Shown: one piece after another, positions 1 to 35,059 of the stretch
How the letters are laid out: each line of letters starts with the position of its first letter
How positions within the stretch are numbered: position 1 is the stretch's first letter
Assembly: GCA_016212295.1 (NCBI GenBank)
Contig: JACRGO010000115.1
Coordinates: forward strand, 1-35,078
Reading direction: 5' to 3'
DNA length: 35,078 nucleotides
Source of the DNA: Nitrospinota bacterium
GTDB lineage: Bacteria > Nitrospinota > Nitrospinia > JACRGO01
The notes under the pieces: model-generated
What the model was told of the DNA's origin: nothing
The model's database searches: none
Seen by the model: the letters and a program-made list of their open reading frames with translations, nothing else
Translations under genes and position numbers: made by a program

Positions 1-84
1 GGCCAAGTGCCTAGCACAGGCTTCGTCTGTAGAAAAATCTTTCTGAAAATCCAATAGGCTCCGCTCTTTGTACGATTTCGCCAT
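1..84 (-). CDS. IS1595-family transposase, N-terminal fragment cut by the window edge
   Basis: The reverse strand from 84 reads 28 codons to the window edge, starting MAKSYKERSLLDFQKDFSTD and continuing EACARHLA. The pattern LLDFQ-x-x-FSTDEAC is the usual start of IS1595-type transposases, where a CxxC zinc ribbon and a DDE-like domain would follow to the left of the window. A modest purine-rich ribosome site (GAGGG) lies about 7 bases before the ATG. Its position at the left boundary of the signalling and magnetosome block is consistent with a mobile-element border. Only the first 28 residues are visible, so the family call rests on this short motif and intactness cannot be judged. Confidence 0.6.
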   Translation of the reverse strand, partial: MAKSYKERSLLDFQKDFSTDEACARHLA

Positions 85-160
85 TGCAATACCCTCTTGC
101 AACAGAGTATATCAAATTAGGAGCTAACTGGATAGGCATATTAAATTATTCTGTTTTTTT

Positions 161-210
161 TTCGTGTCATTTCGTGTATTTCGTGGGCTATCTTTCTTGC
201 ATTTCGTGGT
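161..210. repeat. Family D repeat arm (TTTCGTGTATTTCGTGG words)
   Basis: A one-armed, T-rich copy of the CGTGTATTTCGTG repeat that also occurs as full hairpins at 10301-10360 and 12238-12302. It fills the gap between the transposase fragment and the coiled-coil gene. No gene is seen in 85-219. Confidence 0.7.
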
Positions 211-219
211 TTGTTTTTT

Positions 220-1524
220 TTAAAAATCATTCTCGACCTTCAGATGGCGGCCCTTGAAATTCTGGAGCCTGGATTTTTCAACAAACTTGGCCAGTTCCGC
301 TCCTTGGGATTCCGGGAGATCGGGCGCGGCAACAGTCAAAAGAATTCTGTAATCGTATCTCCCGTCCGTATTCGGCCTGATGTCCCTTACCTCGGCCCGG
401 CCACCAAGAGCGCCGGAATCCGGGAGATGGAACATGACGCCGGGTAAAGTATTGCCTGGCCTCATGGCCTCGTTTCCACGTTTGACAAGAATGCCCAGCT
501 CGGATTCGGTGAGGTCGTACAACAGGCCGGTTTCGATAATCCCCTTCAGCTTTACCTCAATTTGTTGATCCGCGAGGAATACCCTTTGTCCGCCGCGCGC
601 GTCAATACTTTCCCTGGGCGGCAACGCGGGCTTGGCGGGCTTTATAGGCAGCGTGGTGACAGTGGCGACCTTCCGCGGAGGTTCAATCTTTTTTTCCTCC
701 GCCGCAGGAGAAGGAATTTGCTTTTTCAAACGTTCCTGTATGGCCTGCTGCGCCGCCGCTTCCTCGGCCTTGAGTTTTTGTTCAAGCTTTTGTTTTTGGC
801 CTTGGGCCCAGGCCATGAGCTTGCCTTTGAGTTCCTCCTCCTTTTTCTTCAGGCTTAGGAGCATGGACTCTTCCTCGGACTTGTATTTGGCCTTGAGTTC
901 CAACAAGTTTTTTTCCGCTTCCGCCTTAAGTTTTTCCTCGACTTCCTCAATCTCTTTTTTCTTTTGCGCAATTTCCCTTTTCTTTTCTTCCAGGTCCTTG
1001 CCAAGGGCTTGCTCTTCCTTCTGAATCTCCTGTTTTCTTTGCTCCAGATTTTTGGCAAGGGCTTCTTCTTCCTCTTTATACTTGGCGATTACTTCATCCG
1101 GGACTTTCCGGGTCACGCTTTCTTCGGAGGACGGCCCTTCTATATGCGCCTGTTCTTCCAGGAATTGGCTGGCCACCTCAATATCGCTTTCCAAGGCGGG
1201 ACGCTCGAACTCCTTCCAGACCTCATACTCCTTTTTAAGCTCTTCAATGGCCCCGCTAACTTTTTCTATTCTTTTTTGGTAAGAGACCACGGAATTCAGC
1301 TTCTTTTCAGTCTTCAGACACTCCTCTTTTTGCTTTTTCAGGGTCTGCTCCAACTCCCCGGCCTTTGAGCCCAAGGCGGAATAGTCCCATCCCGTGCGGT
1401 CCAGTATTGCATTAAGGGATCTTTGCGATTGCTCCAAGGCGGAGCGCTTTTGGGCGAACTCCTTTTCCTGTTGGAGAAGACGGCTTTCAAGGCTATTAAG
1501 TATTTCTTTGGCGGAAGAACTCAT
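220..1524 (-). CDS. Long coiled-coil protein with C-terminal PilZ-like domain
   Basis: A 434-residue protein. Residues 1-275 are almost entirely charged heptad-like sequence rich in K, E, Q and L (for example EEEEALAKNLEQRKQEIQ), predicting a long coiled coil. A proline/lysine linker (about 280-310) follows, then a compact domain from about 315 to the end. The segment YDLTESELGILV, with the following strands GVMFHLP and AEVRDI, looks like a PilZ fold. The classical RxxxR and D/NxSxxG c-di-GMP motifs are not clear, so binding of c-di-GMP cannot be assumed. No signal peptide or membrane segment is seen, so it is probably cytoplasmic. It is the last gene of the minus-strand signalling block. No good ribosome site precedes the ATG, which lies directly beside a family A repeat arm. 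It could be a scaffold or cytoskeletal protein; the function is not known. Confidence 0.7.
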   Translation of the reverse strand: MSSSAKEILNSLESRLLQQEKEFAQKRSALEQSQRSLNAILDRTGWDYSALGSKAGELEQTLKKQKEECLKTEKKLNSVVSYQKRIEKVSGAIEELKKEYEVWKEFERPALESDIEVASQFLEEQAHIEGPSSEESVTRKVPDEVIAKYKEEEEALAKNLEQRKQEIQKEEQALGKDLEEKKREIAQKKKEIEEVEEKLKAEAEKNLLELKAKYKSEEESMLLSLKKKEEELKGKLMAWAQGQKQKLEQKLKAEEAAAQQAIQERLKKQIPSPAAEEKKIEPPRKVATVTTLPIKPAKPALPPRESIDARGGQRVFLADQQIEVKLKGIIETGLLYDLTESELGILVKRGNEAMRPGNTLPGVMFHLPDSGALGGRAEVRDIRPNTDGRYDYRILLTVAAPDLPESQGAELAKFVEKSRLQNFKGRHLKVENDF

Positions 1525-1530
1525 AAAATC

Positions 1531-1985
1531 AAGTGACTAAAGTTTCAAGTGAACTAAAGTGACTAAAGTTAAGGTGTATCACTTTTTCCCAATGGATGAA
1601 AAAAGGGCCAGCAACTCACCACATTCTGCGTATTCATTTTTAATTTATCCCACGATAACCATTTCATATCTGTAATCACTTCCAACCAATATTGAGTTTC
1701 ACTCGCTTCACTTTCACATATTTTTATCTTATTTTTAAAATCAGCTCTGCTTCTCGCGCGGTTAGCTTCTCTATAATTAGCGCCTACAGAAGTCCCACAC
1801 TTGGTTATCTGATTTTTTAAAACCTTACCTTCCGGAGTATTAGGAAGTTTTGTCGACAACCGTATTATTGCAACCGCGAGTTTTCGTGTCCGTTTTTCAA
1901 GTTCCTTAGAAAAATCTTTATTATCCACTACGTTAATCCACTTATAACTTTAGTCACTTTAGCTCACTTGAAACTTTAGTCACTT
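1531..1985. mobile_element. 455-bp unit: 40-bp inverted repeats enclosing a four-helix-bundle gene
   Basis: The left arm 1531-1570 and right arm 1946-1985 are reverse complements over 40 bases with a single mismatch. Both are made of family A words (AAGTGACTAAAGTTTCAAG). The 375 bases between hold only the four-helix-bundle gene. The same arms occur as gene-free hairpins elsewhere, for example 23862-23977. The structure suggests a mobile or formerly mobile unit, or a processed RNA hairpin with the gene in its loop. No target-site duplication was identified. Confidence 0.6.
1569..1928 (-). CDS. Four-helix-bundle protein (S23/IVP family), frameshifted C-terminus
   Basis: The 119-residue product has the family hallmarks: a first helix with KLAVAIIRLSTKLPNTPEG, then ITKCGTSVGANYREANRARS and FKNKIKICESEASETQYWLEV. 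The family was first noticed in intervening sequences of 23S rRNA and is not a true ribosomal protein; its molecular role is unknown. The start is GTG with no clear ribosome site. The end is odd: after residue ~100 the frame reads VVSCWPFFHPLGKSDTP, whereas one frame over the DNA encodes GELLALFSSIGKK and a stop at 1579-1581, the typical family ending. A one-base deletion near 1612-1630 is the simplest explanation. The gene sits exactly between two 40-bp inverted repeats. The fold should largely survive the altered tail. Confidence 0.8.
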   Translation of the reverse strand: MDNKDFSKELEKRTRKLAVAIIRLSTKLPNTPEGKVLKNQITKCGTSVGANYREANRARSRADFKNKIKICESEASETQYWLEVITDMKWLSWDKLKMNTQNVVSCWPFFHPLGKSDTP

Positions 1986-1994
1986 TCTTTTTAC

Positions 1995-2450
1995 TTAATA
2001 CGCCATTGTTTCCAACTCTATTTTTCCTGTCCCTATATAAAACTTCAGGTTCCTGGGCAAATTTCCTCCTGTTGCCTCCTTATCAATTGCCAAGCCATTG
2101 GCCTGAATGGCCTCCACCGCCGCGTCCCTGATTTTTTTTCCAAAACTGAAAAGAGGATTTGCAGCAACGCCTGCCCCTCCAACAATTTTCACGGACAAGG
2201 ATGAAAGGTCAGCTCCCAATTCCTTCATTTTTTTTAGGAGTACCGGAACTCCGGTTTTTGGGTGAGCCTCCGCCTTGGATTCATCCTTGGATGGAGAAGG
2301 AAGGATGAAGTGGGCCGCGCCTCCAACGTGGTTGGCGCAATCATACACCACCATTGCAATACCCGCCCCGATGGAGCGAACAATTATTACCTCCTTCGGG
2401 TCCTTGCCCGCATGGCACTGTCCTGGTTTCAGTTCGACGTCGTTAGACAT
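1995..2450 (-). CDS. CheD-like protein 1, catalytic cysteine missing
   Basis: The 151 residues align along their length with CheD, the chemoreceptor glutamine deamidase that also binds CheC. The shared segments are the strand-turn before YDCANHVGGAAHFILP, then VPVLLKKMKELGA, VKIVGGAG, FGKKIRDAAVEAI, ATGGN and TGKIELE. In CheD the active site is Thr-Cys-His. Here the aligned residues are Val24, Gly30 and His47, so the nucleophile is absent and deamidation is very unlikely. The fold probably serves as a binding module. It is the first of three such paralogues in the window, each near an HDOD protein and a receiver protein. No strong ribosome site precedes the ATG, which abuts a family B repeat. 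The family assignment is firm; the role in signalling is inference. Confidence 0.85.
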   Translation of the reverse strand: MSNDVELKPGQCHAGKDPKEVIIVRSIGAGIAMVVYDCANHVGGAAHFILPSPSKDESKAEAHPKTGVPVLLKKMKELGADLSSLSVKIVGGAGVAANPLFSFGKKIRDAAVEAIQANGLAIDKEATGGNLPRNLKFYIGTGKIELETMAY

Positions 2451-2472
2451 TGCGTTTACAATTTTAAATGTC

Positions 2473-2592
2473 TTTGATTCAAAATCATTGAAAATTGAAA
2501 ATTGTTAATTTCAAATTGAAAATTTGGAACATTGCATACACGCCTTCTCTATCAATTTGCAATTTTAAATTTGCAATTTACAATTTTCAATG
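2473..2592. repeat. Family B palindromic repeat with loop
   Basis: The left arm CATTGAAAATTGAAAATTG (from 2488) is roughly complementary to the right arm CAATTTGCAATTTTAAATTTG (from 2554). The loop GGAACATTGC...TATCAAT resembles loops of other family B copies at 6068-6188, 7079-7165 and 8661-8764. Confidence 0.75.
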
Positions 2593-2601
2593 TCTCTGGC
2601 A

Positions 2602-2973
2602 TTATTCACCACAGGCTTTCTTACCCTTTTTCTTTGCGGTTGCAACGGATTGCCCAATAATATTACATAGCTGATTACATTCGTCTAAAATTGCATCTAC
2701 CTTGTTTCCTGGAAGTAATTGAGCCTTAATTATAAAACGAAGCCACAAACGAGACTCTCGTAATTCTTTAAGGCAAATGCTCAGTTTATGGCTGAAATCA
2801 GCACGACTTTCAGCCGCGCATCCCTCTTCGTAATTTGGAGACGGAGACGTGCCGCAACGTAACAATTGGCCTCCAATATGAGTTCCTAAACGTGTACTTG
2901 GAAGCGCATCTACAAGCTTTCCTATCCGTACCGCAAAATCCAGCAGTCTATTTGAAAGTTCTTCCGGCGTCAT
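2602..2973 (-). CDS. Four-helix-bundle protein (S23/IVP family)
   Basis: The 123-residue protein shows the family pattern: LLDFAVRIGKLVDALPSTRLG in helix 1, then LLRCGTSPSPNYEEGCAAES, ADFSHKLSICLKELRESRLW and a final helix with DECNQLCNIIGQSVATAKK. It looks intact. It is a different subtype from the copy at 1569-1928 and only distantly similar to it. Family B repeats lie directly on both sides: the full hairpin 2473-2592 on the left and arms from 2981 on the right. No ribosome site is visible before the ATG. It separates CheD-like 1 from HDOD 1, so it probably inserted into the signalling block. Its molecular role is unknown. Confidence 0.85.
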   Translation of the reverse strand: MTPEELSNRLLDFAVRIGKLVDALPSTRLGTHIGGQLLRCGTSPSPNYEEGCAAESRADFSHKLSICLKELRESRLWLRFIIKAQLLPGNKVDAILDECNQLCNIIGQSVATAKKKGKKACGE

Positions 2974-2980
2974 TTTTCAC

Positions 2981-3081
2981 AATCAATTTGCAATTTTAAA
3001 TTTGCAATTTAAAATGCTTTTGACTCAAAAAAATGAAAAACCATTGAAAATTGTCAATTTCAAATTGAAAATTTACAATGC
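2981..3081. repeat. Family B palindromic repeat
   Basis: CAATTTGCAATTTTAAATTTG (2984 onward) is followed by an inverted arm around 3042-3080 (CATTGAAAATTGTCAATTTC). It separates the four-helix-bundle gene from HDOD 1. Confidence 0.7.
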
Positions 3082-3086
3082 CTCTT

Positions 3087-3941
3087 CTACGCAACAAACT
3101 GCTGAACCATATCCTGCGCGGTCAGCACATATTCGGAATAAAGAAGCATGTCTCTTTCGTCAATTTTCAAAAGGGCCATGGCCTTTTCATCTATTGAGTA
3201 ATGCAAACCATCCACGCCAAGTCCAGCCCCCATTCCAAGGCAGACCACGTCGCTTATGTGGATTATGCCGACCAGCTTCTGGTGCTCAACTGGCGCGGAA
3301 CTGGGATTATGGTGGCGTCTGACAGCTTCCACAAGGTCCGCTGGAAAGTTCCACTTCTCGGCTATTTTCCCTCCGATTTCCTGATGGTCGAAGCCCAAGA
3401 CCTCTTTTTCCGCTTGATTGAAATTAATTTTTTTCTCCTTCACCAGCGCCACGATCTCTTCAAAATATGAACCCAGATACCTGGCGCAAATCACTTTTCC
3501 TATATCGTGGATGATTCCCGCAGTGAAGGCCACTTCCTTTAAAGGCTTGGCCTTCAACTCCGCGATGGTCCCGGCCAAAAAGGCGGAAGTAAGCGCGGCT
3601 TCCCATAGTCCGCCAGGACCCATTAAATATTCATCCGTGCCTTTTTTAAGCGTGCCCTGCATTGCGAAGGAGACCACCAGGTTCCGCACGGCCTTCAGCC
3701 CTAGCATGGCAATGGCGTGCTGCGCGGAATCCACTTTTTTCGCCAGCCCGTAATATGGAGAGTTGCAAAGCCGCAGGATGCTGGCTGTCAGGGCCTGGTC
3801 CGCCATGATTATCTCAGCCAAGCTCAAGGCCGAGCTGCCTTCGCTCTCCGCCATATGCAACGCCTTCATTGCAATCGCGGGCAAGGGAGGAAGCTCGTCT
3901 ATGTCATTAACTAAATTTTCCAGGGAAGGCTTTATTGACAT
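3087..3941 (-). CDS. HDOD-domain signalling protein 1
   Basis: The 284-residue protein is one HDOD domain over most of its length. It starts DIDELPPLPAIAMKAL, typical of HDOD, followed by the helical repeat ILRLCNSPYYG and the LGLKAVRNLV segment. HDIGK is retained at about 145-149, with a later RRHHNP. HDOD proteins are HD-superfamily relatives usually considered non-catalytic adaptors in bacterial signal transduction, although an HD pair and later histidines are visible here. A strong AGGAG ribosome site lies 5 bases before the ATG. It is closely similar to HDOD 2 (6216-7070) and less so to HDOD 3 (8776-9633). It ends in VQQFVA, close to VEQFVS of HDOD 2. It is probably cytoplasmic and acts with the neighbouring CheD-like and receiver proteins; no output domain is attached. 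Confidence 0.92.
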   Translation of the reverse strand: MSIKPSLENLVNDIDELPPLPAIAMKALHMAESEGSSALSLAEIIMADQALTASILRLCNSPYYGLAKKVDSAQHAIAMLGLKAVRNLVVSFAMQGTLKKGTDEYLMGPGGLWEAALTSAFLAGTIAELKAKPLKEVAFTAGIIHDIGKVICARYLGSYFEEIVALVKEKKINFNQAEKEVLGFDHQEIGGKIAEKWNFPADLVEAVRRHHNPSSAPVEHQKLVGIIHISDVVCLGMGAGLGVDGLHYSIDEKAMALLKIDERDMLLYSEYVLTAQDMVQQFVA

Positions 3942-3967
3942 GGATGCTCCTAATTAAAAACTCCTGT

Positions 3968-4705
3968 TTAAAAACCATATTGCAAGGCGGCCCTCAAGGT
4001 AAAATCATCACTTACACCGGTAAGTCCGAAAGCGGTTCCCAAGCTGAAGTTAATGTTCCTGGTTACCGCAATATCCAGATTGGGCAGGAGATAGTGGCCC
4101 TGCCTGTTCATAAAGCGCATGTCCCTGGCTTCTCCAAGGGAGCCGTGGAACTCCAGGTTGAAGCCCACCCTGTCGGTTAGCCCGAACATAATGGCGTTGG
4201 CGTAGCCAAGGGTAGGTCCCGCCAGGGGAGTACCGCCGGGCGCGGACAATTCCTTCACTATTATCGGGCCGATAACAATGGAAAACCTTTCAAAATTCTT
4301 TTCAAAAATAGGGCGGAATTCAATGGTGTCCGCGGCGTTCCCGCCTCCGTACATATCCATCTGGTTATTTATTGCCAAGGCAAGTTCAATATTCAATCTG
4401 AAATCCACGAAATATTGGCCCTTTTCAAAAAAGGCAAAATTGAACTCCGTTTTCAGCGCGTTTAATTCGTTTACTTCTCCCGCAAGATAAGCGTAATCGA
4501 AGTAGAGAGACTGGCACCACCATTTCGTGAAGCTATGCTCGATTTCTATCTCGTGCATGAATGGGTTGCCTCCGCTCCTGTCGCCTTCCGGCCCTTGGAT
4601 ATAGTCGAAATTGTAGGTAGCCACCGTCTGCCCCAAATCCGGAAGATCATAGGTGTATAGTTTCAGGTGCCCCGCCTCCACGGAAGATACGGCCAGAAAA
4701 AGCAC
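3968..4705 (-). CDS. Outer-membrane beta-barrel-like protein; start disrupted by a one-base shift
   Basis: The open frame, with a GTG at 4705, gives 245 residues rich in alternating strand-like sequence with many aromatics, ending in LQYGF. A C-terminal phenylalanine is typical of outer-membrane barrels. The N-terminus reads VLFLAVSSVEA, the end of a signal peptide with an A-type cleavage site. The expected beginning is present one frame away: an ATG at 4755-4757 with GGGAG before it gives MK- and then stops, but removing one base yields MKIKKLSGKTLSITG running into the open frame. So either one base was inserted near 4748-4754, or translation starts at a rare codon such as ATT. It lies between receiver 1 and HDOD 1. 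The family is not recognised; the barrel topology is inference. Confidence 0.65.
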   Translation of the reverse strand: MLFLAVSSVEAGHLKLYTYDLPDLGQTVATYNFDYIQGPEGDRSGGNPFMHEIEIEHSFTKWWCQSLYFDYAYLAGEVNELNALKTEFNFAFFEKGQYFVDFRLNIELALAINNQMDMYGGGNAADTIEFRPIFEKNFERFSIVIGPIIVKELSAPGGTPLAGPTLGYANAIMFGLTDRVGFNLEFHGSLGEARDMRFMNRQGHYLLPNLDIAVTRNINFSLGTAFGLTGVSDDFTLRAALQYGF

Positions 4706-4810
4706 CAGAATTCCAGTGATTGATAATGTTTTTCCCGATAATTTCTTAATCTTTCATCTTCTCCCAAAAATTACAATGGCCAGTGGCTAATGACTTCGCA
4801 CAACGGGCGT

Positions 4811-4851
4811 AAATTTTCAATTTACAATTGTCAATTTTAAATTTGCAATTT
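4811..4851. repeat. Family B repeat, single arm
   Basis: AAATTTTCAATTTACAATTG and the following TTTAAATTTGCAATTT are family B words without a clear partner arm. They lie just downstream of receiver gene 1. Confidence 0.6.
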
Positions 4852-4866
4852 CCTTCTTTATCGGCA

Positions 4867-5409
4867 TTACAGCCCCTTGATCTTTATGCATTTATTCTCC
4901 CGCAACTGCCGGGCACGCTCCAAGGCAGCCTTAATACGTTCCGCTTCCTTCTGAATCGTCTCCAGCAGATTTTCAGCGCCTACCTTGTCAAAAAGTTCCG
5001 CCATGAGTTCATTAAGCTTCCATGCCTCATCGAATTTCTCCTTGAGCCTCAGCATACTGCGTACCCTGGCCATCAGGGCCAATTGGTCGCAAGGCTTGAC
5101 AATATATTCGTCAGCTCCTGATTCCGTCAGTCCTCTCTCGATGCTTTCACTTTCCGGCAAGGCGGAAAGAATTATAATGGGAATAAAGGAATCCTTTTCT
5201 ATTTCCCTGATTCGCCGGATGGCCTCAAACCCGTCCATTTCCGGCATCATCAGGTCCATGAGGATCAGATCAAAGGATTCTTTTTTGACCTTTTCCACCG
5301 CATCTTTTCCGTTGAACACGCACACGGTTTCATGCCCGGCTGATTCCATATATCTCTGGACTATTTCATTAAAGTCCACTTCATCATCGACTATCAGTAT
5401 CCTTGCCAT
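4867..5409 (-). CDS. Stand-alone response regulator 1 (receiver plus helical tail)
   Basis: The 180 residues open with a canonical receiver domain: MARILIVDDE with the acidic pair at 8-9, phospho-acceptor Asp52 in LILMDLMMPEMDG, a Ser in IIILSA and the conserved Lys in YIVKPCD. After about residue 125 there is a charged helical tail, probably a coiled coil, without a DNA-binding or enzymatic domain. It would relay phosphorylation by protein contacts. A good AAGGAG site sits 5 bases before the ATG. It belongs to a set of three paralogous receivers (also 7194-7829 and 7988-8620), each near an HDOD and a CheD-like gene. Its tail is shorter than and unlike the other two. No histidine kinase is present in the window, so its phosphodonor must be encoded elsewhere. 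Confidence 0.93.
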   Translation of the reverse strand: MARILIVDDEVDFNEIVQRYMESAGHETVCVFNGKDAVEKVKKESFDLILMDLMMPEMDGFEAIRRIREIEKDSFIPIIILSALPESESIERGLTESGADEYIVKPCDQLALMARVRSMLRLKEKFDEAWKLNELMAELFDKVGAENLLETIQKEAERIKAALERARQLRENKCIKIKGL

Positions 5410-5425
5410 GAATTCTCCTTAGCTG

Positions 5426-5539
5426 AGTGACTAAAGTGAGCTAAAGTTTCAAGTGCTTAAAGTTGTTGAAGTTTTTTTTATTAAAAAGAAACCTACAAAA
5501 ACTTTAGTCACTTTAGTTCACTTGACACTTTAGTCACTT
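5426..5539. repeat. Family A hairpin repeat
   Basis: The left arm AGTGACTAAAGTGAGCTAAA (5426 on) and right arm ending at 5539 (ACTTTAGTCACTT) are imperfect reverse complements around a roughly 35-base loop that begins GTTGTTGAAG. It lies between CheD-like 2 and receiver 1. Confidence 0.8.
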
Positions 5540-5554
5540 GTTTTTAGACTTTAG

Positions 5555-6013
5555 TCAATACGTCACCGTCTGAAGCGCCACTTTTCCTGTGCCAATGGAA
5601 AACTTCACGCTTCTTTTGTGGCTGCCTCCGGTATCCTCCTTGGCCAGGGTCAACCCCACCTCTTTTAGGGCCGCCACCGTAGCGTCTCTGTTTTTTCTGC
5701 CAAAACTTAAAATCGTGGGAGCGTTATGGAGATCCGCTCCTCCGATCATTTTCACGGACAGAGAGGCCGTGTCCGCTCCCAGTTCCTTCATCTTTTTCAG
5801 GAGATTGGGCAAGCCGGCTCCAGGAAAGGTGTCCGCCTTGGAAGTATCTTGGGGCGGCATGGAGATAGTAAACAGGCCCGCGCCCCCGACGCGGTTTTTT
5901 TCGTCATACAAAAGAAGCGCAATACCAACGCCCACGGAATGAATGACGATATCATCCGTTGGAGTCTTGTCGGCAATGCAACGACCGGGTTGTAAAACTA
6001 TTTCTTTATTCAT
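5555..6013 (-). CDS. CheD-like protein 2, whole catalytic triad missing
   Basis: The 152-residue paralogue of CheD-like 1 has the same layout: YDEKNRVGGAG after the first strands, LPNLLKKMKELGAD, VKMIGGAD, FGRKNRDATVAALKEVGL, EDTGG and TGKVALQ. At the positions of the CheD Thr-Cys-His active site it has Ile24, Gly30 and Leu47. All three catalytic residues are lost while the fold residues are kept, which argues for selection as a non-enzymatic binding protein. It starts at ATG 6013 with only a weak GAAG site. It lies downstream of HDOD 2 and upstream of receiver 1, flanked by repeats on both sides. Possible partners are the HDOD or receiver proteins, or a CheC-like protein or chemoreceptors encoded elsewhere. 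Confidence 0.85.
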   Translation of the reverse strand: MNKEIVLQPGRCIADKTPTDDIVIHSVGVGIALLLYDEKNRVGGAGLFTISMPPQDTSKADTFPGAGLPNLLKKMKELGADTASLSVKMIGGADLHNAPTILSFGRKNRDATVAALKEVGLTLAKEDTGGSHKRSVKFSIGTGKVALQTVTY

Positions 6014-6016
6014 GGC

Positions 6017-6188
6017 TTCATCAATTCACAATTTTAAATTTGCAATTTGCAATTTTAAATGCCTTGATTCAAAATCATTGAAAATTGAAAATTGTTAATT
6101 TTAAATTGAAAATTTTAAACATTGAAACATTGCCGCAAGCTGGCTTCATCAATTTACAATTTCAAATTTGCAATTTTCAATTTGAAAT
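6017..6188. repeat. Two adjacent family B repeats
   Basis: A single arm (6023-6060, CAATTCACAATTTTAAATTTG) is followed by a full hairpin 6068-6188. The loop 6118-6152 (AAACATTGAAACATTGCCGC onward) is nearly identical to the loop of the copy at 7079-7165, so HDOD 2 is bracketed by two copies of the same element. Confidence 0.8.
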
Positions 6189-6215
6189 GCTTCGGTTTTC
6201 TCCGCCTCCTCCTCT

Positions 6216-7070
6216 TCACGAAACAAATTGCTCCACTGTCTCCTGCATGCCCAGCACATACTCGAAGTAACTTTCCATGTCCGCTTCCGTGATGCTCAGC
6301 AGCTTAACGGCGTGTTCGTCCATGGGATAATTCAGCCCGTCTCCTCCTATCCCGATCCCCATGCTCAGGCAAATCACGTCGCTGATGTGGATAATGCTGA
6401 CAAGTTTTTGGTGTTCTGCGGGAGCAAAGCCGGGCGAATGATGATGCCTTACTGATTCCACCAGGTCCTCTGGAAATTTCCATTTTTCCGCTATTTTTCC
6501 CCCTATTTCCGCATGGTCAAACCCAATCACCTCTGTTTCGGCCTTGTTGAAGTTGATTTTTTTGTCGTTCACCATATCTACAATCTCATCAAAAAAAGAA
6601 ATCAGGTGCTTGCTGAGCACCACCTTTCCAATATCGTGAATAATGCCGGCGGTAAAGGCTATGTCCTTTAAAGGGCCGGTCTTGTCACGAGCGATCCTGC
6701 CGGCCAGAAAAGCGGAGTTGACGGCGCTCCTCCAAAGGTCGCCTGGACCCAGCAGATATCCATCCGTCCCTTTTTCCAGCTTGTCCTGGACAGCGAAGGA
6801 GACCACCATGTTCCGGATGGCGCTGAACCCCACCAATGCAATGCCTTGCTGCACGGAATCAACCTTCTGGGGTATCCCGTAGTAGGCGGAGTTGCAGAGC
6901 TTCAGCACATTGGCGGTAAGGCCCTGGTCCGTGCGGATTATTTCCGCCAATTCGGACGCGGAACTGCCGTCGCTGCGGACTATTTCCAGGGCCTTCATTG
7001 CCGCCGCGGGCAAGGAAGGAAGCTCGTCGATGTCCCTTACCACTGTATCAAGAGAAAGCTTTTCAGACAT
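6216..7070 (-). CDS. HDOD-domain signalling protein 2
   Basis: A 284-residue HDOD protein, close to HDOD 1 in sequence and length. It begins MSEKLSLDTVVRDIDELPSLP, keeps the CNSAYYG and VGFSAIRNMVVSF segments, GIIHDIGK in the middle and VRHHHSP towards the end, and finishes VEQFVS. I chose the ATG at 7070; the frame is open further upstream to 7163, but those extra residues are translated family B repeat and not part of the domain. There is little ribosome-site signal before 7070. The gene lies between receiver 2 upstream and CheD-like 2 downstream. As in HDOD 1, the HD pair is present but the protein carries no output domain, so it is probably an adaptor. Its partners are inferred from position only. 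Confidence 0.92.
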   Translation of the reverse strand: MSEKLSLDTVVRDIDELPSLPAAAMKALEIVRSDGSSASELAEIIRTDQGLTANVLKLCNSAYYGIPQKVDSVQQGIALVGFSAIRNMVVSFAVQDKLEKGTDGYLLGPGDLWRSAVNSAFLAGRIARDKTGPLKDIAFTAGIIHDIGKVVLSKHLISFFDEIVDMVNDKKINFNKAETEVIGFDHAEIGGKIAEKWKFPEDLVESVRHHHSPGFAPAEHQKLVSIIHISDVICLSMGIGIGGDGLNYPMDEHAVKLLSITEADMESYFEYVLGMQETVEQFVS

Positions 7071-7078
7071 ATAAGAAC

Positions 7079-7165
7079 CATTGAAAATTGAAAATTTTAA
7101 ACATCGAAACATTGCTTGCAAGCTGGCTTCATCAATTTGCAATTTAAAATTTGCAATTTTCAATG
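7079..7165. repeat. Family B hairpin repeat
   Basis: Arms ATTGAAAATTGAAAATTT and CAATTTAAAATTTGCAATTT enclose the loop 7099-7135 (AACATCGAAACATTGCTTGC onward), which matches loop 6118-6152 almost base for base. It sits in the leader of HDOD 2. Confidence 0.8.
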
Positions 7166-7193
7166 CCTTTGACTTCAGACTTCAGACGGCTCT

Positions 7194-7829
7194 TCAAAAT
7201 TCCTCCATCTTCACGTATCTCTTCCTGTAAATCCGGCGGAAATTATCCATTATGTCTATCATCTTCCTGGTTTCCTCCCGTGCGCCCAAGGCAAGACCCA
7301 GGTTAACGGAATCAAATTTTTCCGGCGCGTCCAGCATGCGCTTCAATGCGTTCTCGACACTGGACATAGGCCCTTCCATATTGCCCAGGCATTCGGTCCC
7401 CATCTGGGTAAAGATATCTTCCAGCAGTTCCTTGAGTTCCCTGACGTCATCGAACTCAGCCTTCAGCCGCAGCATGCTCCTGACCCGCGCCATAAGGGAC
7501 AGTCTGTTAAAGGGCTTTGTGATATATTCGTCCGCGCCTGATTCCACCAATCCCTTTTCGATGCCTTGACTTTCCGCCGTGCCGGTAAGAATGATAATGG
7601 GAACAAAAGAGTCCTTTAAAATTTCCCGGATTTTCCTGATGGCCTCAAGCCCGTCCATCCCGGGCATCATCAGGTCCATGAGGATGAGGTCAAAGTGTTC
7701 CTTCCTGGCTTTTTCAACGGCCTCCCTGCCATCAAAGGCCATGTCAGTCTCGTATCCGGAAAATTTCAGTTGGTCCTGAATGGCTTGATTTAATTCCTTT
7801 TCATCATCAACGACAAGTATTTTTCCCAT
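7194..7829 (-). CDS. Stand-alone response regulator 2 with long helical C-terminus
   Basis: The 211-residue protein has a receiver at 1-122: acidic pair 8-9, Asp52 in LILMDLMMPGMDG, Thr in IIILTGT, Lys in YITKPFN. The remaining ~85 residues are helical. In them, LGNMEGPM and the closing RRIYRKRYVKMEEF are shared in pattern with receiver 3 (LGNMRDPL and SQIHRKRYTKVQEL). This tail resembles the dimerisation helices of histidine kinases with the phosphorylatable histidine replaced; that is inference. A strong AAGGAG lies 5 bases before the ATG. It follows receiver 3 and precedes HDOD 2. No output domain is present. It probably works through contacts with partner proteins after phosphorylation by a kinase encoded elsewhere. 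Confidence 0.93.
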   Translation of the reverse strand: MGKILVVDDEKELNQAIQDQLKFSGYETDMAFDGREAVEKARKEHFDLILMDLMMPGMDGLEAIRKIREILKDSFVPIIILTGTAESQGIEKGLVESGADEYITKPFNRLSLMARVRSMLRLKAEFDDVRELKELLEDIFTQMGTECLGNMEGPMSSVENALKRMLDAPEKFDSVNLGLALGAREETRKMIDIMDNFRRIYRKRYVKMEEF

Positions 7830-7843
7830 GGTTTCTCCTTAAC

Positions 7844-7989
7844 AAAGTGACTAAAGTGAGCTAAAGTTTCAAGTGAACTATAGTTGCGGTGGAAAAGCAA
7901 TTTTCTATTTTAAACTTTAGTCACTTTGGTTCACTTGACACTTTAGTCACTTTAGTTCACTTTAGTTCACTTGACACTTTAGTCACTTT
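7844..7989. repeat. Family A hairpin repeat with duplicated right arm
   Basis: The left arm AAAGTGACTAAAGTGAGCTA is complementary to right-arm words ACTTTAGTCACTTTGGTTCA. The right side carries an extra copy of the words, reaching the stop codon of receiver 3. The loop begins GTTGCGGTGGAAAAGC, matching loops in the copies at 17061 and 23862. Confidence 0.8.
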
Positions 7990-8620
7990 ACAACTCCTGG
8001 ACCTTCGTATATCTTTTTCTGTGGATTTGGCTGATGTTCTCAACAATTTCCTCTATCTTTTTCACTTCCCGGCGCATGGAGGCCAGTCCGGCTGAATCAG
8101 GTCCATGACAGCCATTAACGCCACCCAGGGCCTTATTGAGGCGGTCCAGCGGATCTCTCATGTTGCCCAGGCCCTGGGTCACCAGTTTTTTTATTTTGCT
8201 GTTAAAAACCTCAAGAGTTTCCTTTGCCGTCTGGAGTTCGTCGTATTTTTCCTTTAGTCTTAACATGCTGCGGACCCGGGCCTGAAGGGCCGAGCGCTCA
8301 AAAGGCTTATGTAGAAACTCGTCCGCGCCGGCTTCCAGCCATCCCATATCCAAGGTTTCCGTTTCCTCCAGGGTGGATACAATAATTATGGGAATAAAGG
8401 AATCTTGTGTTATTTCCCTGATTTTTTTCGTTGCCTCAAATCCGTCCATTTCCGGCATCTCTATATCCATGAGAATCAGGTCAAATTGCTCCTTTTGAAT
8501 TTTTTTCACCGCCTCCAGACCGTTAAAGACGCCGATGGCTTCATGCCCGATGGCCTTCACGTCCTTTTGCATTCCAAGGTTCATGATTTTGCTGTCATCA
8601 ACGATCAGAATCCTCGCCAT
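7988..8620 (-). CDS. Stand-alone response regulator 3 with long helical C-terminus
   Basis: The 210 residues include a receiver domain: MARILIVDDS with the acidic pair at 8-9, Asp52 in LILMDIEMPEMDG, Ser in IIIVSTL, Lys in FLHKPFE. The helical tail (about 125-210) carries GLGNMRDPLDRLNKAL and ends SQIHRKRYTKVQEL, matching the tail pattern of receiver 2. An AGGAAG ribosome site lies 7 bases before the ATG. It is transcribed after HDOD 3 and before receiver 2. The tail has no recognisable enzymatic or DNA-binding domain. The three receivers are more alike in their first 120 residues than in their tails, consistent with duplication and then diversification of partner choice. Confidence 0.93.
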   Translation of the reverse strand: MARILIVDDSKIMNLGMQKDVKAIGHEAIGVFNGLEAVKKIQKEQFDLILMDIEMPEMDGFEATKKIREITQDSFIPIIIVSTLEETETLDMGWLEAGADEFLHKPFERSALQARVRSMLRLKEKYDELQTAKETLEVFNSKIKKLVTQGLGNMRDPLDRLNKALGGVNGCHGPDSAGLASMRREVKKIEEIVENISQIHRKRYTKVQEL

Positions 8621-8660
8621 GAAAAATCTTCCTGAAAAATAGAGGCTATCGGAAAATCAT

Positions 8661-8764
8661 TCTAAATTGAAAATTGAAAATTGCAAATTGATAAAGCAAG
8701 CTTACGGCAATGTTCCATTGTTTAAAATTTTCAATTTAAAATTAACAATTTTCAATTTTCAATG
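8661..8764. repeat. Family B hairpin repeat (inverted copy)
   Basis: Arms AAATTGAAAATTGAAAATTG and CAATTTTCAATTTTCAATG enclose a loop that, read on the minus strand, gives GGAACATTGCCGTAAGCTTG. This matches the loops at 6118 and 7099 in the opposite orientation. Confidence 0.8.
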
Positions 8765-8775
8765 CCTTTCATTAA

Positions 8776-9633
8776 TCAATTCGTGGAGCTATGCGCCACG
8801 AAATCCTCGATATCCTTCATGCCGGTTTGAAGGTCCAGGATATATTGGTCCAGTTCCGTTTCATTAATGTGCAACACGGCCAGGGCGCTTTCGTCCAATT
8901 CGTAGCTTAGTCCGTCCCCTCCGACCCCTACTCCACAGTTGATGGCTATAATATCCGCCACATGTACTATGGCGGCAAGTTTTTTTCCTATAAGGCTCTT
9001 TCCTGGTTCGTGATGGCATTTGATGGCGTCAACCAAGTCCGCTGGAAATCCCCACTTTTTGGCAAGCTTTCCTCCTGCTTCGGCATGGTCCATTCCAAAT
9101 ATCCTTTTTTCCGCCTCGTTAAAAGCGATATTTTCGGCCTTGACCAGAGACTTGGCCTGATTGAAGGAAGACAACAGAAAACGGCTCAACAGAATCCTGC
9201 CGATGTCATGAACCATGCCGGCGGTAAAGGCGGTATCAACAAGGGTCCTGTCCTTTTTTTTCGCTATGCGGGACGCGATGGCGCCGACGGCGACGCCATG
9301 CCGCCATAATTCCCCTTTATTCATCAGATAGCCGTCAAATGCCTTGTTCATGGATTTCGACAGCTCCGTTGAGAGGGCGATATTCCTTATGCACTGAAAG
9401 CCAAGGAGCGCAACCGCGTGCTTGACGGACGCCACCTTGGTGGTAAGACCGTAAAAAGGGGAATTTACAAGCCTGATGACCTTGGCCGTAAGCCCCTGGT
9501 CCATGCCGATGACCTTTGCCAGGTCATCTCCCGAGGACTTTTCCGTCTCCGTCATTTGCATCAGCTTTACGGCTGAGGACGGCAGACTCTTAATTTCCTC
9601 GGTGGATTCTATTATTTTATCGATTTCATGCAT
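8776..9633 (-). CDS. HDOD-domain signalling protein 3
   Basis: A 285-residue HDOD protein starting MHEIDKIIESTEEIKSLPSS. I chose the ATG at 9633 because AGGAG lies 5 bases upstream; the longer open frame to 9768 only translates a family C repeat. Domain landmarks are VIRLVNSPFYGL, LLGFQCIRNIALS, GMVHDIGR in the middle and IKCHHEPGKS near the end. It is more divergent from HDOD 1 and 2 than they are from each other, and carries HDIGR instead of HDIGK. It lies between CheD-like 3 upstream and receiver 3 downstream, forming the third CheD/HDOD/receiver set. The protein is probably cytoplasmic and non-catalytic. Confidence 0.92.
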   Translation of the reverse strand: MHEIDKIIESTEEIKSLPSSAVKLMQMTETEKSSGDDLAKVIGMDQGLTAKVIRLVNSPFYGLTTKVASVKHAVALLGFQCIRNIALSTELSKSMNKAFDGYLMNKGELWRHGVAVGAIASRIAKKKDRTLVDTAFTAGMVHDIGRILLSRFLLSSFNQAKSLVKAENIAFNEAEKRIFGMDHAEAGGKLAKKWGFPADLVDAIKCHHEPGKSLIGKKLAAIVHVADIIAINCGVGVGGDGLSYELDESALAVLHINETELDQYILDLQTGMKDIEDFVAHSSTN

Positions 9634-9670
9634 GACAACTCCTGAACATAGGGCTTCGCCCCAAGTGTAA

Positions 9671-9775
9671 GAGGGAAGAGTGGAATGATGGAATGTTGGA
9701 AGATTGGGGTTAAAACAAAGTGGTCCATCTTTCCATCTTTCCACCATTCCAATATTCCATTCTTCCACTCTTCCT
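9671..9775. repeat. Family C hairpin repeat
   Basis: The left arm GGAATGATGGAATGTTGGAA and right arm CCATCTTTCCACCATTCC are reverse-complementary in pattern, around a loop with GGTTAAAACAAAG. It lies between CheD-like 3 and HDOD 3. Confidence 0.8.
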
Positions 9776-12163: not shown

Positions 12164-12237
12164 GGCAATCTCGCTTTATATATCCTTACACGGAATATCT
12201 GAGAGTTCGTCTCTCACAACTTAAAACCCAAGATATG

Positions 12238-12302
12238 CCCACGAAACACACGAAATACACGAAAAAATGTATTCCGTTCGTTTATTTCGTGTGTTTCGTG
12301 GG
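12238..12302. repeat. Family D hairpin repeat
   Basis: CCCACGAAACACACGAAA pairs with TTTCGTGTGTTTCGTGGG around a loop with ATGTATTCCG, the inverse of the loop at 10301-10360. It lies between the MamA paralogue and the kinase gene. Confidence 0.85.
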
Positions 12303-12317
12303 CGATTTGTTTGTAGT

Positions 12318-13268: not shown

Positions 13269-14218
13269 TCCATATACATAAGATAAAGAATCGCCTTATC
13301 GTCTCCTATATTTTTATCGTACCCCTTGGTAAGGAGCTTTCTGAACCTGAGCAGGTTTTCCTTTTTTCCACCGCTCAGCAGATTAAAGGAGAGGTCGTCG
13401 TTAATAAGTTTTACTCCATCCGATTTAGCCACGACAAACTCCACATCCTCGTAGGAGCGTTCCTTATATTTCGGCGCTGGAAAGACCAGCTTCATTTCTT
13501 CTTTCTTGTCGCATGAAATCAATTGGACAAAAAGCCTCTCCCTGTGGCTGTTAAGGCGGCGCATGGAATTTTCCTTGGTCTTTATGGCAACGTCGATATC
13601 GCCGATCTTGACCAGGTCCAGGGAACGGCCCTTGTGTCCGAGGACCCCTGCGCAGAAGGTGGCGGAGAAGTTAAGCAGGTGGCCGGACTTATTATTTTTC
13701 GGGTCATTATATGGCGCCAGGGCCTTTCTTGCCTGTTCCCGGTTTTCTTCCTTGGCTATGAAAAAACCGAATTCCTTTTCCCATGCCTGGGACAACCGCT
13801 TCCATGCGTCGTTGAAAATGGAAACAATCTGGAGAGGAGGGACGCTATCCGCTGAGGAAGCCTTGTCCGCGCCTTCCTCCATCGTAAGCCGTCTTAATAA
13901 AGGAGAAGGCGGGGGAAAGGATGCCTGGTCCTCATCCACGATTTTTTTTGGGGAGCGCCTGCCATTGTTATCAAAAAAATGGTTTTCCAGGCAGCTCTCA
14001 ATGAAGTAATACCCAAGAGAGTTGGCCAGGCAACGGGAAGAAAAAGGTCCTATGCCGGCCTCGTCGCTTGTGCCGTCCGCGAGAAAAAAAATAGCTCCGC
14101 CATCAAGGAAGTGAATGCCGGCGGCGTCCTCGCAAAGCTCGTCTTCCCTGAGCCCATGCCTTCTGCCCCCGGCGAACAGGACCTCGGCGAATAGGTGGTT
14201 AGTGTGCATTGGGAACAT
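13265..14218 (-). CDS. PP2C-like protein phosphatase of the same set
   Basis: The 317-residue product matches PP2C landmarks in order: CEDAAG near residue 29 for the first metal aspartate, FFLADGTSDEAGIGPFSS near 44-61, FSATFCAGVLGHKG, VKIGDIDVAI with the GD motif, VVAKSDGV and a closing GDDKAILYLMY. PP2C enzymes remove phosphate from serine and threonine using two metal ions. An insert of about 80 residues (80-170) containing PPPSPLLRRL separates the early motifs from the rest. Start choice is uncertain: ATG codons at 14218 and 14209 both lack a clear ribosome site and abut a family C repeat. It is coupled to the downstream kinase, which it probably counteracts. Confidence 0.8.
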   Translation of the reverse strand: MFPMHTNHLFAEVLFAGGRRHGLREDELCEDAAGIHFLDGGAIFFLADGTSDEAGIGPFSSRCLANSLGYYFIESCLENHFFDNNGRRSPKKIVDEDQASFPPPSPLLRRLTMEEGADKASSADSVPPLQIVSIFNDAWKRLSQAWEKEFGFFIAKEENREQARKALAPYNDPKNNKSGHLLNFSATFCAGVLGHKGRSLDLVKIGDIDVAIKTKENSMRRLNSHRERLFVQLISCDKKEEMKLVFPAPKYKERSYEDVEFVVAKSDGVKLINDDLSFNLLSGGKKENLLRFRKLLTKGYDKNIGDDKAILYLMYME

Positions 14219-14223
14219 GGTAT

Positions 14224-14870
14224 AGTGGAAGAATGGAATGATGGAACACTGGAATAATGGAATAGTGGGGTTTTCGGTTTTCTGTGGTGTATAATATTTT
14301 TAGTGAGTAGTACATTTTCTCCGTTTTCCTTGAAAATTCTTAATATTTTATGGACCGTAAAAATATTAATAGGGGTTTTAAAAAGCTTCGCGTATGGGAA
14401 GACGCGATTGCCCTTTATGCCTTGGCTTTCAAAACATTTTCCAGTTTCCCATTCGAGCTAAAGAAGATAGCCGGCAACAGCATTGATGCTGCTCACAGCA
14501 TTTCAAGAAACATTGCGGAAGGATTTTGCCGCCGCAGTTTGAAAGAATACTTAAATCATTTAAATATTGCCTTGGGCTCCTGCGGGGAATTCCATTCCTG
14601 TTACCTAAGTTTTAAAAAAGCCGACCAAATAACCACAGAAGAATTCGAAAAATTAGACCAGCTTCATTATAAAGTTGAGAATGAACTCCTTAAACTGATT
14701 GAATCCCTGCAAAAGAAACAACAAAACGGAAAATGGGAAGAAAATTTTTATTCCAAATCCCAAAAAACCTGATCCGCCATCACGCTTTCCAATCTTCCAT
14801 TATTCCATCATTCCAATCTTCCATTATTCCAATCTTCCATTATTCCAATCTTCCATCATTCCACTATTCC
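14224..14870. mobile_element. Family C inverted arms enclosing a plus-strand four-helix-bundle gene
   Basis: The left arm 14224-14270 (GGAAGAATGGAATGATGGAA) and right arm 14783-14870 (TTCCATTATTCCATCATTCC, expanded by tandem copies) are inverted relative to one another. The gene between runs opposite to its neighbours. This matches the arrangement at 1531-1985 but with different arm sequence. It splits the vWA gene from its PP2C partner. Confidence 0.55.
14350..14772 (+). CDS. Four-helix-bundle protein (S23/IVP family)
   Basis: The 140-residue product begins MDRKNINRGFKKLRVWEDAI and has the family core: FSSFPFELKKIAGNSIDAAHSI, SRNIAEGFCRRSLKEYLNHLNIALGSCGEF and a final helix around KLDQLHYKVENELLKLIESL. 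The motif SRNIAEG and LKEYL..LNIALGS are very typical. It is intact and of normal length, with a lysine-rich tail after residue 115. It is one of few plus-strand genes and lies within family C inverted repeats between the vWA and PP2C genes. The start at 14350 follows an AT-rich stretch with no strong ribosome site. The molecular role is unknown. Confidence 0.88.
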   Translation: MDRKNINRGFKKLRVWEDAIALYALAFKTFSSFPFELKKIAGNSIDAAHSISRNIAEGFCRRSLKEYLNHLNIALGSCGEFHSCYLSFKKADQITTEEFEKLDQLHYKVENELLKLIESLQKKQQNGKWEENFYSKSQKT

Positions 14871-14896
14871 TTCTTTTTTTTTCATCATTCCAATCT

Positions 14897-16073: not shown

Positions 16074-16430
16074 TTACCCGTCTTTCCTTCTCATGCTGCT
16101 CGCAATGGCCTTATACCCAGTATAGGCGATCAGGCCGCCAAGGACAGGCCCGGCCGCGATAACGGCAAGGGTCCCGACAGCGGCGGCTTCACAGCCGATT
16201 GCAGCCACGGTAGCGGCCACGCCGGTGAAATATGCCGCCAGTCCACCGGCCGCGCAGGATCCAGCGGCGGCAATGCCCGCCCCGGAGGTGGCAACGCCGC
16301 CTGCTATCACTCCGGCGGTTGTGGATAAAACAGCGGCGGCGTTGTCATCACTGCCTTTTTCCTCTTCCGTTTCCTCTTCTTCTCCCAATTCCAGCTCCAA
16401 CTCTTCCTTGCTGCTTTTTTTCTTTGCCAT
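16074..16430 (-). CDS. Gly/Ala-rich membrane protein, copy 2
   Basis: The 118 residues comprise a charged N-terminus (EELELELGEEEETEEEKG) followed by a hydrophobic region from about 32 to 108 built of small residues, with repeats such as GVIAGGVATSGAGIAAAG and GCEAAAVGTLAVIAAGPVLG. A basic end RRKDG closes it. The pattern predicts two or three tightly packed glycine-zipper helices. The hydrophobic half is closely similar to the protein at 16686-17009, so the two are tandem duplicates with different soluble heads. GGGG lies 4 bases before the ATG. The leader contains a palindrome shared with the leader of the mamF-like gene. The family is not recognised. Gly-rich membrane proteins occur among magnetosome proteins (for example MamD and Mms6), but no specific match is claimed. 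Confidence 0.7.
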   Translation of the reverse strand: MAKKKSSKEELELELGEEEETEEEKGSDDNAAAVLSTTAGVIAGGVATSGAGIAAAGSCAAGGLAAYFTGVAATVAAIGCEAAAVGTLAVIAAGPVLGGLIAYTGYKAIASSMRRKDG

Positions 16431-16685: not shown

Positions 16686-17009
16686 TTATTTATCTTTTCT
16701 TGCAGCGTCTCTAATGATCTTATATCCGCAATATGCGATAAGACCTCCTAAAACAGGACCGGCCGCGACCACCGCAAGAGTGCCGACAGCGGCGGCTTCA
16801 CAGCCGATTGCGCCTATTATGGCGCCCAGACCTGTCCCATACGCTGCCAGTCCGCCGGCGGCCGCTCCGCCGGCGATGGAAATAGCCGGGCCGGCTGTAA
16901 CAACGCCTCCTGCTATTACTCCGACCGTGCCGGCCAAAACCGCGCCGGCGTCATTAGGTTCTCTTCCTTCCGTCCTTCCTTCCTTCATGTCGTGCTCCAC
17001 TTTTTCCAT
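16686..17009 (-). CDS. Gly/Ala-rich membrane protein, copy 1
   Basis: I start this at ATG 17009 (107 residues) because GGAGGAGG lies 8 bases upstream; the open frame extends to 17054 but without support. The head is short and charged (MEKVEHDMKEGRTEGREP). The rest is small-residue hydrophobic sequence: AGTVGVIAGGVVTAGPAISIAGG, GLGAIIGAIGCEAAAVG and AAGPVLGGLIAYCGYK, ending in basic residues. From GVIAGG onward it is clearly paralogous to the protein at 16074-16430. It directly follows mamB in the direction of transcription. Expected location is a membrane, possibly the magnetosome membrane. No known family was recognised. Confidence 0.7.
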   Translation of the reverse strand: MEKVEHDMKEGRTEGREPNDAGAVLAGTVGVIAGGVVTAGPAISIAGGAAAGGLAAYGTGLGAIIGAIGCEAAAVGTLAVVAAGPVLGGLIAYCGYKIIRDAARKDK

Positions 17010-17060
17010 AATGCATACCTCCTCCTTATTATTATGGGACACAGATAAACACATCAGTTT

Positions 17061-17145
17061 AAAGTGACTAAAGTGTCGAGTGAACTAAAGTTGCTGTAGA
17101 AAAACAATTTTTAACTTTAGTCACTTTAGTTCACTTTAGGCACTT
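17061..17145. repeat. Family A hairpin repeat
   Basis: The left arm AAAGTGACTAAAGTGTCGAG and right arm AACTTTAGTCACTTTAGTTC are imperfectly complementary. The loop begins GTTGCTGTAGAAAAAC, close to the loops at 7844 and 23862. It sits directly after mamB. Confidence 0.85.
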
Positions 17146-19371: not shown

Positions 19372-19389
19372 AAGTTCTCCTTAAGAAAA

Positions 19390-19520
19390 CATGGAATAGT
19401 AGCGTATTGGAATAATGGAATGTTGGAATATTGTAATGATGCTCAAAAAAATTCTCCATCATTCCGCCTTTTTCATCATTCCACTATTCCTCTTCATCCT
19501 TCCAATCTTCCATCATTCCG
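19390..19520. repeat. Family C hairpin repeat
   Basis: GGAATAATGGAATGTTGGAA pairs with the words TCATTCCACTATTCC on the right. The loop GATGCTCAAAAAAATTCTCC resembles loops at 22846 and 28440. It separates mamA from mamQ. Confidence 0.8.
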
Positions 19521-19529
19521 TTGTTTTCT

Positions 19530-23837: not shown

Positions 23838-23861
23838 AAGGTTTTGCAAAAGTTAGAAAAC

Positions 23862-23977
23862 AAGTGACTAAAGTTTCAAGTGAGCTAAAGTGAACTAAAG
23901 TTGTGGTAGATTTTTTATAAAAAAAATAACCTCCGCAACTTTAGTTCACTTTAGCTCACTTGAAACTTTAGTCACTT
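23862..23977. repeat. Family A hairpin with perfect 42-bp arms
   Basis: The left arm 23862-23903 and right arm 23936-23977 are exact reverse complements over 42 bases. The 32-base loop TGGTAGATTTTTTATAAAAA onward is itself partly self-complementary, so almost the whole 116 bases could form one hairpin. It lies between mamL and mamM. Confidence 0.9.
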
Positions 23978-23988
23978 TTCTTTAGTTC

Positions 23989-34676: not shown

Positions 34677-34874
34677 TACTTACTCGCCTATTCTGAGAAT
34701 TTATCTCGCACATTTCATTTCGGCAATGAGCCAAAAATATTTGAAATTTCAAAAAGGCGGCTAAATGTGAATCGTTTTATGGCAAAAAGAGATAATTTTT
34801 CGGAATAGGCGAGTAAGTATCTCCAACCGTGAAAAAACATTGCGCCTTTTTTGAAAATTTCAAATATTTTTGGC
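34677..34874. repeat. Two interleaved inverted repeats
   Basis: Arm A 34677-34693 (TACTTACTCGCCTATTC) pairs perfectly with A' 34803-34819. Arm B 34730-34759 (GCCAAAAATATTTGAAATTT onward) pairs with B' 34843-34874 with two small gaps. The order A-B-A'-B' cannot form two nested hairpins at once. No gene is seen in 34677-35059. Confidence 0.75.
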
Positions 34875-35059
34875 TATGTTTTACCAGTAAAACTTTAAAA
34901 TTCCGGCACAGCCCGTCTTCTGGATTTTTTTGTTTGATGCGCATTGGTTTTAAATTGCAGGGCCCGCGCGCTACCGGCTATTGCAACACTTGTAGATAGA
35001 AAAAGCCACGCGAGGTAAGCTACGTTCTTCGTATTGTGCCACAACACAAGGAGAACGAC

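Follow-up and report, generated by a model that had tools for sequence, protein, structure and literature searches.

The STRR heptamers of cyanobacteria are intergenic, degenerate 7-bp tandem words. In two Xanthomonas genomes, arrays of the GGGAATC heptamer were reported to occur as inverted pairs 70 and 75 times, and that survey noted no general association with mobile elements (PMC4692102). In a further heptamer survey no mechanism was evident (PMC4679880). The intervening sequence (IVS) of the Coxiella 23S rRNA (S23p/IVP ORF, ~430 nt, 28-bp stem) has tandem GACAGAT heptamers ahead of its ORF and was called a selfish element (PMC4990558). The homing of DGRs needs a DNA hairpin or cruciform, for which the structure of the stem and not its sequence counts (PMC3240598). 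In the literature searched, which left most subscription journals outside, no paper linking heptamer repeats to helix-bundle genes was found.

The window, by which the whole analysed stretch of 35,078 nt is meant, is part of a Nitrospinota bacterium assembly (GCA_016212295.1, contig JACRGO010000115.1). The original prediction, made from its letters, was that a four-helix-bundle gene lies alone between inverted repeats matching over 39 of 40 bases and that the same words form gene-free hairpins at 5426, 7844, 17061 and 23862. Both parts were borne out, the first by re-alignment and profile searches and the second at the positions given in Table 1, two of the hairpins being delimited more narrowly (7841-7967 and 17071-17145) than in the table. 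The core arms 1531-1570 and 1946-1985 pair in 39 of 40 bases, and the extended arms are 47 nt each with a spacing of 373 nt. The single ORF between them is the helix-bundle gene, with profile matches to PF05635 (E=4.5e-19, 69 bits vs the cut-off of 33.8) and TIGR02436 (1.5e-22, 79.8 vs the cut-off of 24), and no transposase of known family is present inside. The flank inverted-repeat score of the element was 42, whereas the maximum of 5,000 Markov shuffles was 22.5. Chance or a terminator hairpin as the source of the arms was ruled out by these shuffles and by the gene controls described below.

A frameshift affects the C-terminal region of the window gene, so that the end typical of the family is read in another frame, up to 1579. 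The paralogue L012 is likewise broken, by two in-frame stops, and the window copy is thus probably a recent relic. When the orthologous site was sought by blastn in the same-genus genome G001, the coding DNA was mostly too diverged and the matches were largely repeats. The Rfam search of the window gave no match to any structured RNA family. Since the element sits between protein genes and not in an rRNA gene, the definition of an IVS does not cover it, although by analogy it may work like a general form of one.

The coordinates of this element and of the other elements and hairpins of the window are presented in Table 1. The hairpins of positions 1-9768 lie between duplicated chemotaxis-type genes (CheD, HDOD, response regulators). 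Two neighbouring small paralogues (D15 repeat, 16074-16430 and 16686-17054) are 75% identical and had no match in Pfam/NCBIfam searches. Positions 34677-34875 hold a pair of inverted repeats interleaved with each other (TACTTACTCGCCTATTC..., AGCCAAAAATATTTGAAATTT...); both occur again in L008 and contain no word arrays; TACTYACTCG-like hairpins were seen in L022, L031 and L040.

Table 1. Helix-bundle genes, their arms and gene-free hairpins located in the window.
Feature	Position	Strand	Basis and remarks
Left arm (3' arm of the minus-strand gene)	1525..1571	+	words ACTAAAGT/CAAGTGA; 94% complementary to 1945-1991
Four-helix-bundle gene (23S rRNA IVP / TIGR02436), C-terminal part out of frame	1569..1928	-	PF05635, TIGR02436, predicted four helices
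Right arm (5' arm of the gene)	1945..1991	-	pairing with 1525-1571
AAATTG-word hairpin, one side of second gene	2486..2592		hairpin search
Second helix-bundle gene, different word family (AAATTG)	2602..2973	-	PF05635 E=7.5e-15; own arms
AAATTG-word hairpin, other side of second gene	2985..3073		hairpin search
Gene-free hairpin, ACTAAAGT words	5426..5538		homologues in same-genus G001, 75-83% identity
Gene-free hairpin, ACTAAAGT words	7841..7989		hairpin search
Gene-free hairpin, TGGAAT words	9674..9774		hairpin search
Gene-free hairpin, 9-bp CACGAAAxA words (word length of GxxExxY-type elements)	12230..12311		hairpin search
Third element, 5' arm, 8-bp words TGGAATxx	14208..14268	+	arms 75-86% complementary
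Third helix-bundle gene, antisense to both neighbours	14350..14772	+	PF05635; TIGR02436 3.3e-18
Third element, 3' arm	14789..14875	-	pairing of arms
Gene-free hairpin, ACTAAAGT words	17061..17145		hairpin search
Gene-free hairpin, TGGAAT words	19384..19529		hairpin search
Gene-free hairpin, ACTAAAGT words	23857..23982		60-nt arms, 88% complementary, 6-nt loop

The window's genome has 20 PF05635 places, and nearly every intact one lies between its own inverted arms. The arm words differ by element family (TTAGCGG, CACGGTTTACGG, GTCATTG, ATTACGA, CAAATTA, CATCGAAC, TGGAATxx and others). One flank score was applied to all genes, with a threshold of 14 in the window's genome and of 18 across phyla; the controls of the window's genome were drawn from 358 kb of its contigs, and gene starts and control ORFs were called with simple rules. 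The arms were much more frequent at helix-bundle genes than at other genes, as expected from the link that had been predicted: the threshold was reached by 11/12 helix-bundle genes and 15/322 other genes of the window's genome (Fisher p=7e-13). As hairpins are so common, the control genes include some true positives. The high-scoring controls L030 (TPR/SH3), L039 (CNNM) and L023 (EutN) are ordinary genes, and L030 is flanked left and right by distinct gene-free hairpins that belong to a single family. The arm pattern at helix-bundle genes was found again in relatives of the same class. In 77 loci of a public genome collection, covering Planctomycetota, Omnitrophota, Bacteroidota, Atribacterota, Clostridia, Desulfobacterota, candidate-phyla-radiation bacteria and others, the score was at least 18 at 47, compared with 22 of 340 neighbouring genes (p=5e-25); about a quarter of the IVP genes of this set had weak or absent arms. 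Arms were present at every one of the 12 plasmid copies studied, of which 11 are cyanobacterial and the other is from Riemerella, and those of the cyanobacterial plasmids were mostly STRR-like heptamers.

The unit determined from these loci consists of an arm, a single helix-bundle (IVP/S23) gene and the inverted arm, is about 420-600 bp long (427-599 bp between the 10th and 90th percentiles) and has arms built of 7-8-bp word arrays. Among the 83 IVP elements scoring at least 18, the best arm period was 7 in 62 and 8 in 17. The arms start at a median of 18 bp ahead of the start codon and about 0 bp past the stop codon, and the units are inserted in intergenic sites and operon junctions. G exceeded C in the 5' arm of 62 elements vs 11 with the opposite bias, a polarity not seen in the gene-free hairpins of the window's genome (35 vs 42). 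Both neighbours run in the direction of the helix-bundle gene in 48 cases and against it in 2, which suggests expression by host read-through. Antisense elements exist nevertheless, at 14350-14772 in the window and on plasmids (L228 and L230).

In the 358 kb of the window's genome, 77 of the 208 intergenic regions exceeded the 99% null for a hairpin, corresponding to ~215 per Mb, and period 7 was the commonest among them. The arms of all 14 own elements studied recurred in this sample, in a mean of 8.8 bins vs 1.4-1.5 for the arms of other genomes. The word families are genome-specific, and the gene-free hairpins belong to the element families. Gene-free hairpins are more numerous than gene-bearing ones, and hairpin movement might therefore be independent of the protein.

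The mobility suggested in the original prediction was supported by filled and empty sites of homologous elements. When Trichormus variabilis plasmid C is compared with the plasmids L240-L242 (Microchaete, Nostoc linckia and Nostoc carneum), its L236 element, with CAGAATTCAGAAGTCAG arm words, stands out as an insertion of 423 bp between flanks that are ~98% identical. The insertion duplicated 5 bp of the target, GTAAT. A search of the empty sites for arm remnants found none and the site was uninterrupted; sites that lack the gene can thus lack the arms as well, the whole unit being missing in these Nostocales plasmids. In Brasilonema (L251), a gene-free hairpin of the same words occupies the same place. 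Homologues of the L236 element were found in other operons (L252, L253), and positions 1445-1863 of L236 correspond to 1001-1419 of L253, the homology stopping at the arm ends. In the case of L234 and L255, a second insertion of ~500 bp with 96% identical flanks was located where a stop and a start codon overlap; its 3-bp repeat is ambiguous. The elements of L231 and L229 replace a short stretch without duplicating the target. Overall, target duplication was clear once (5 bp) and ambiguous once (3 bp), with small replacements elsewhere. Presence and absence at orthologous sites (L236/L240-L242, L234/L255) and relocated homologues (L236/L253), the marks of a transposable element, were observed with homologues of the window element. 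Because the whole unit is absent at sites with ~98% identical flanks and a gene-free hairpin takes the same site elsewhere, the gene and arms of these homologous elements are one mobile unit.

Paralogues at unrelated loci of the window's genome have their words in common (L009/L012, L005/L016, L003/L004). At a Chryseobacterium junction, the whole arm-gene-arm element was matched in one piece in 34 of the 118 genomes searched. Several relatives carry a gene-free hairpin of other words there, two of them with flanks 92-96% identical, and others have gene relics; two have another ORF. The latter ORF (L226, L227) is unrelated and membrane-protein-like, and in L227 it follows a remnant of the helix-bundle start. 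At a Flavobacterium junction (L292-L311), the place of the element can also be taken by gene-free hairpins from at least 2 word families, by C-first hairpins or by Y1-type transposase genes. These Y1 (RAYT-like) transposase genes are flanked by palindromes. In Anabaena sp. 90 (L233), a helix-bundle element is located between cas6 and cas4 of type I-D CRISPR plasmids; a plasmid 99% identical to it (L254) has a different hairpin (GTAGGTTGGGTT...) at the cas6-cas4 junction.

The model of the window protein consists of four helices (pLDDT 89). Its structure matches were the S23 structures 2rld (BT_0352, Z 18.9) and 2gsc (XCC0516 of Xanthomonas, Z 17.4), followed by the Avd chains of DGRs (Z 14.3-13.6) and by unrelated bundles at 12.3 and below. 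The paralogue L001 matched PHROG 3206 ('Avd protein of DGR', E=1.4e-10). An anti-phage defence function was dropped after the PADLOC search gave no match for the helix-bundle gene, as was a phage origin after tblastn of a paralogue against a phage collection gave nothing. The dN/dS of relocated gene copies was 0.08-0.15, which corresponds to purifying selection. Of 24 PDDEXK_3 (GxxExxY) genes, 18 were found between inverted arms of this design, the search covering loci L257-L286 from 13 genomes (L262, L275 and L280 being from the window's genome). Their arm words are 8-10 bp long, e.g. CACGGATTA and CAGGATAAT, and the 7-bp best period of 62/83 IVP elements was detected in 0/18 GxxExxY elements. 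Word length tracks the protein family, so the protein and the words appear to belong together. Selection and word length argue that the protein matters to the element, and of the two roles initially proposed for it, cargo or partner, that of a partner is favoured and that of cargo less so.

The explanation that we consider likely is that the window copy is a member of a large class of small hairpin-armed mobile elements, the spread of which proceeds by protein-promoted copying of the hairpin. The Avd-like protein would be expressed mostly from host read-through and would bind hairpins that carry the words of its own family, probably while their DNA is extruded or single-stranded at replication. 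The bound protein would promote the copying of the hairpin into a new site via host polymerases and repair. The gene-free hairpins would be non-autonomous derivatives, either moved in trans or remnants of an internal loss, and the likeness of the two arms would be maintained by hairpin-templated correction or turnover. It is rather unlikely that the word hairpins spread alone, by replication slippage and hairpin template switching or by a Y1/RAYT or other transposase in trans, with the helix-bundle genes riding in the loop. Helix-bundle genes occur in the loop again and again in very many phyla and keep a dN/dS of ~0.1 after relocation, and the covariation of word length with the enclosed protein family is difficult to reconcile with passengers, although the density of hairpin-bearing intergenic regions given above and the swapping of different-word hairpins and Y1-type transposase genes at the one Flavobacterium site would be expected from hairpins of this kind. 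Y1 transposases are also common in these genomes. However, no Y1 transposase was detected by search in the helix-bundle-carrying draft genomes G044, G047, G048, G056 and G057, of which G047 and G044 are element-rich, whereas others have both; dependence on a Y1/RAYT transposase thus does not appear to be universal, although a draft assembly may miss such genes.

The strong co-orientation with host genes could also mean that the arms act in RNA, with RNase III excising the loop as in 23S rRNA and the element spreading via an RNA intermediate and a reverse transcriptase (RT). The rRNA IVS has the same protein and stem-ORF-stem design, with heptamers in Coxiella (PMC4990558), and its fold is shared by Avd, the partner protein of DGRs. 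A stem acting as sense RNA would be expected to have an excess of sense G.U pairs, but this was absent (158 vs 192 in the reverse asymmetry), and a number of elements, such as 14350-14772 and L228, run against both of their neighbours. In the RVT_1 search of 60 draft genomes, no match was detected in the element-rich G040, G044, G053 and G059; the sole match of the window's genome is on another contig (C142) and so not adjacent to the window element. Since several element-rich genomes have no detected RT, an RT in trans appears not to be required, with the same reservation about draft assemblies, and the RNA route as a whole is considered improbable. Since there was no G.U excess and several element-rich genomes had no detected RT or Y1, a DNA-hairpin route with host polymerases, the hairpin being recognised by the Avd-like protein, is favoured but unproven. 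The operon-junction position and co-orientation might further be read as a host regulatory cassette, in which the arms would serve for attenuation or termination and the protein would be a regulator of the adjacent operon that the host has domesticated. This is very improbable: the precise presence and absence at identical sites largely refutes it, copies are relocated, the neighbouring genes are unrelated and the arms differ per element family.

The copied-hairpin element preferred here resembles the described systems in part. As in the 23S rRNA IVS of Coxiella and Leptospira, an IVP-family ORF is enclosed by terminal inverted repeats or a stem; in contrast to it, the present elements lie between protein genes or in operons, are multi-copy, vary in presence and absence and have gene-free relatives. 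The intergenic, degenerate 7-bp tandem words are shared with STRR, with the GGGAATC-type heptamers of Xanthomonas and Nostoc and with the TAACTGA heptamers, but no link to a gene or mobile element was made in the published GGGAATC-type (PMC4692102) and further heptamer (PMC4679880) reports. The Avd accessory protein of DGRs shares the fold of the helix-bundle protein, whereas the distribution of RT matches described above differs from the DGR arrangement. MITEs and insertion sequences likewise have inverted terminal arms, target duplication (one case here) and short gene-free forms; unlike them, the present unit has no known transposase, and its arms are word arrays instead of a fixed terminal sequence.

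The rRNA IVS appears to be the subset of these elements that went into rRNA genes. We give an even chance to the broader proposal of a new class of mobile DNA, in which word-array hairpins would be moved without a known transposase or RT, the IVP (as a non-enzymatic hairpin binder) or PDDEXK_3 would be the sole encoded factor, the protein family would set the word length (7-8 vs 8-10 bp), heptamers would be fossils of such elements and the rRNA IVS would be the subset inserted in rRNA. The model yields testable predictions on the recognition of hairpins by the Avd-like protein. It also predicts a class of mobile elements in many phyla that standard annotation would miss because there is neither a transposase nor a conserved terminal sequence. 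A common origin of heptamer repeats and rRNA intervening sequences is likely, which bears on the old puzzles of the spread of intergenic heptamers in cyanobacteria and others, the role of the widespread S23/IVP genes and the source of the 23S rRNA IVS.
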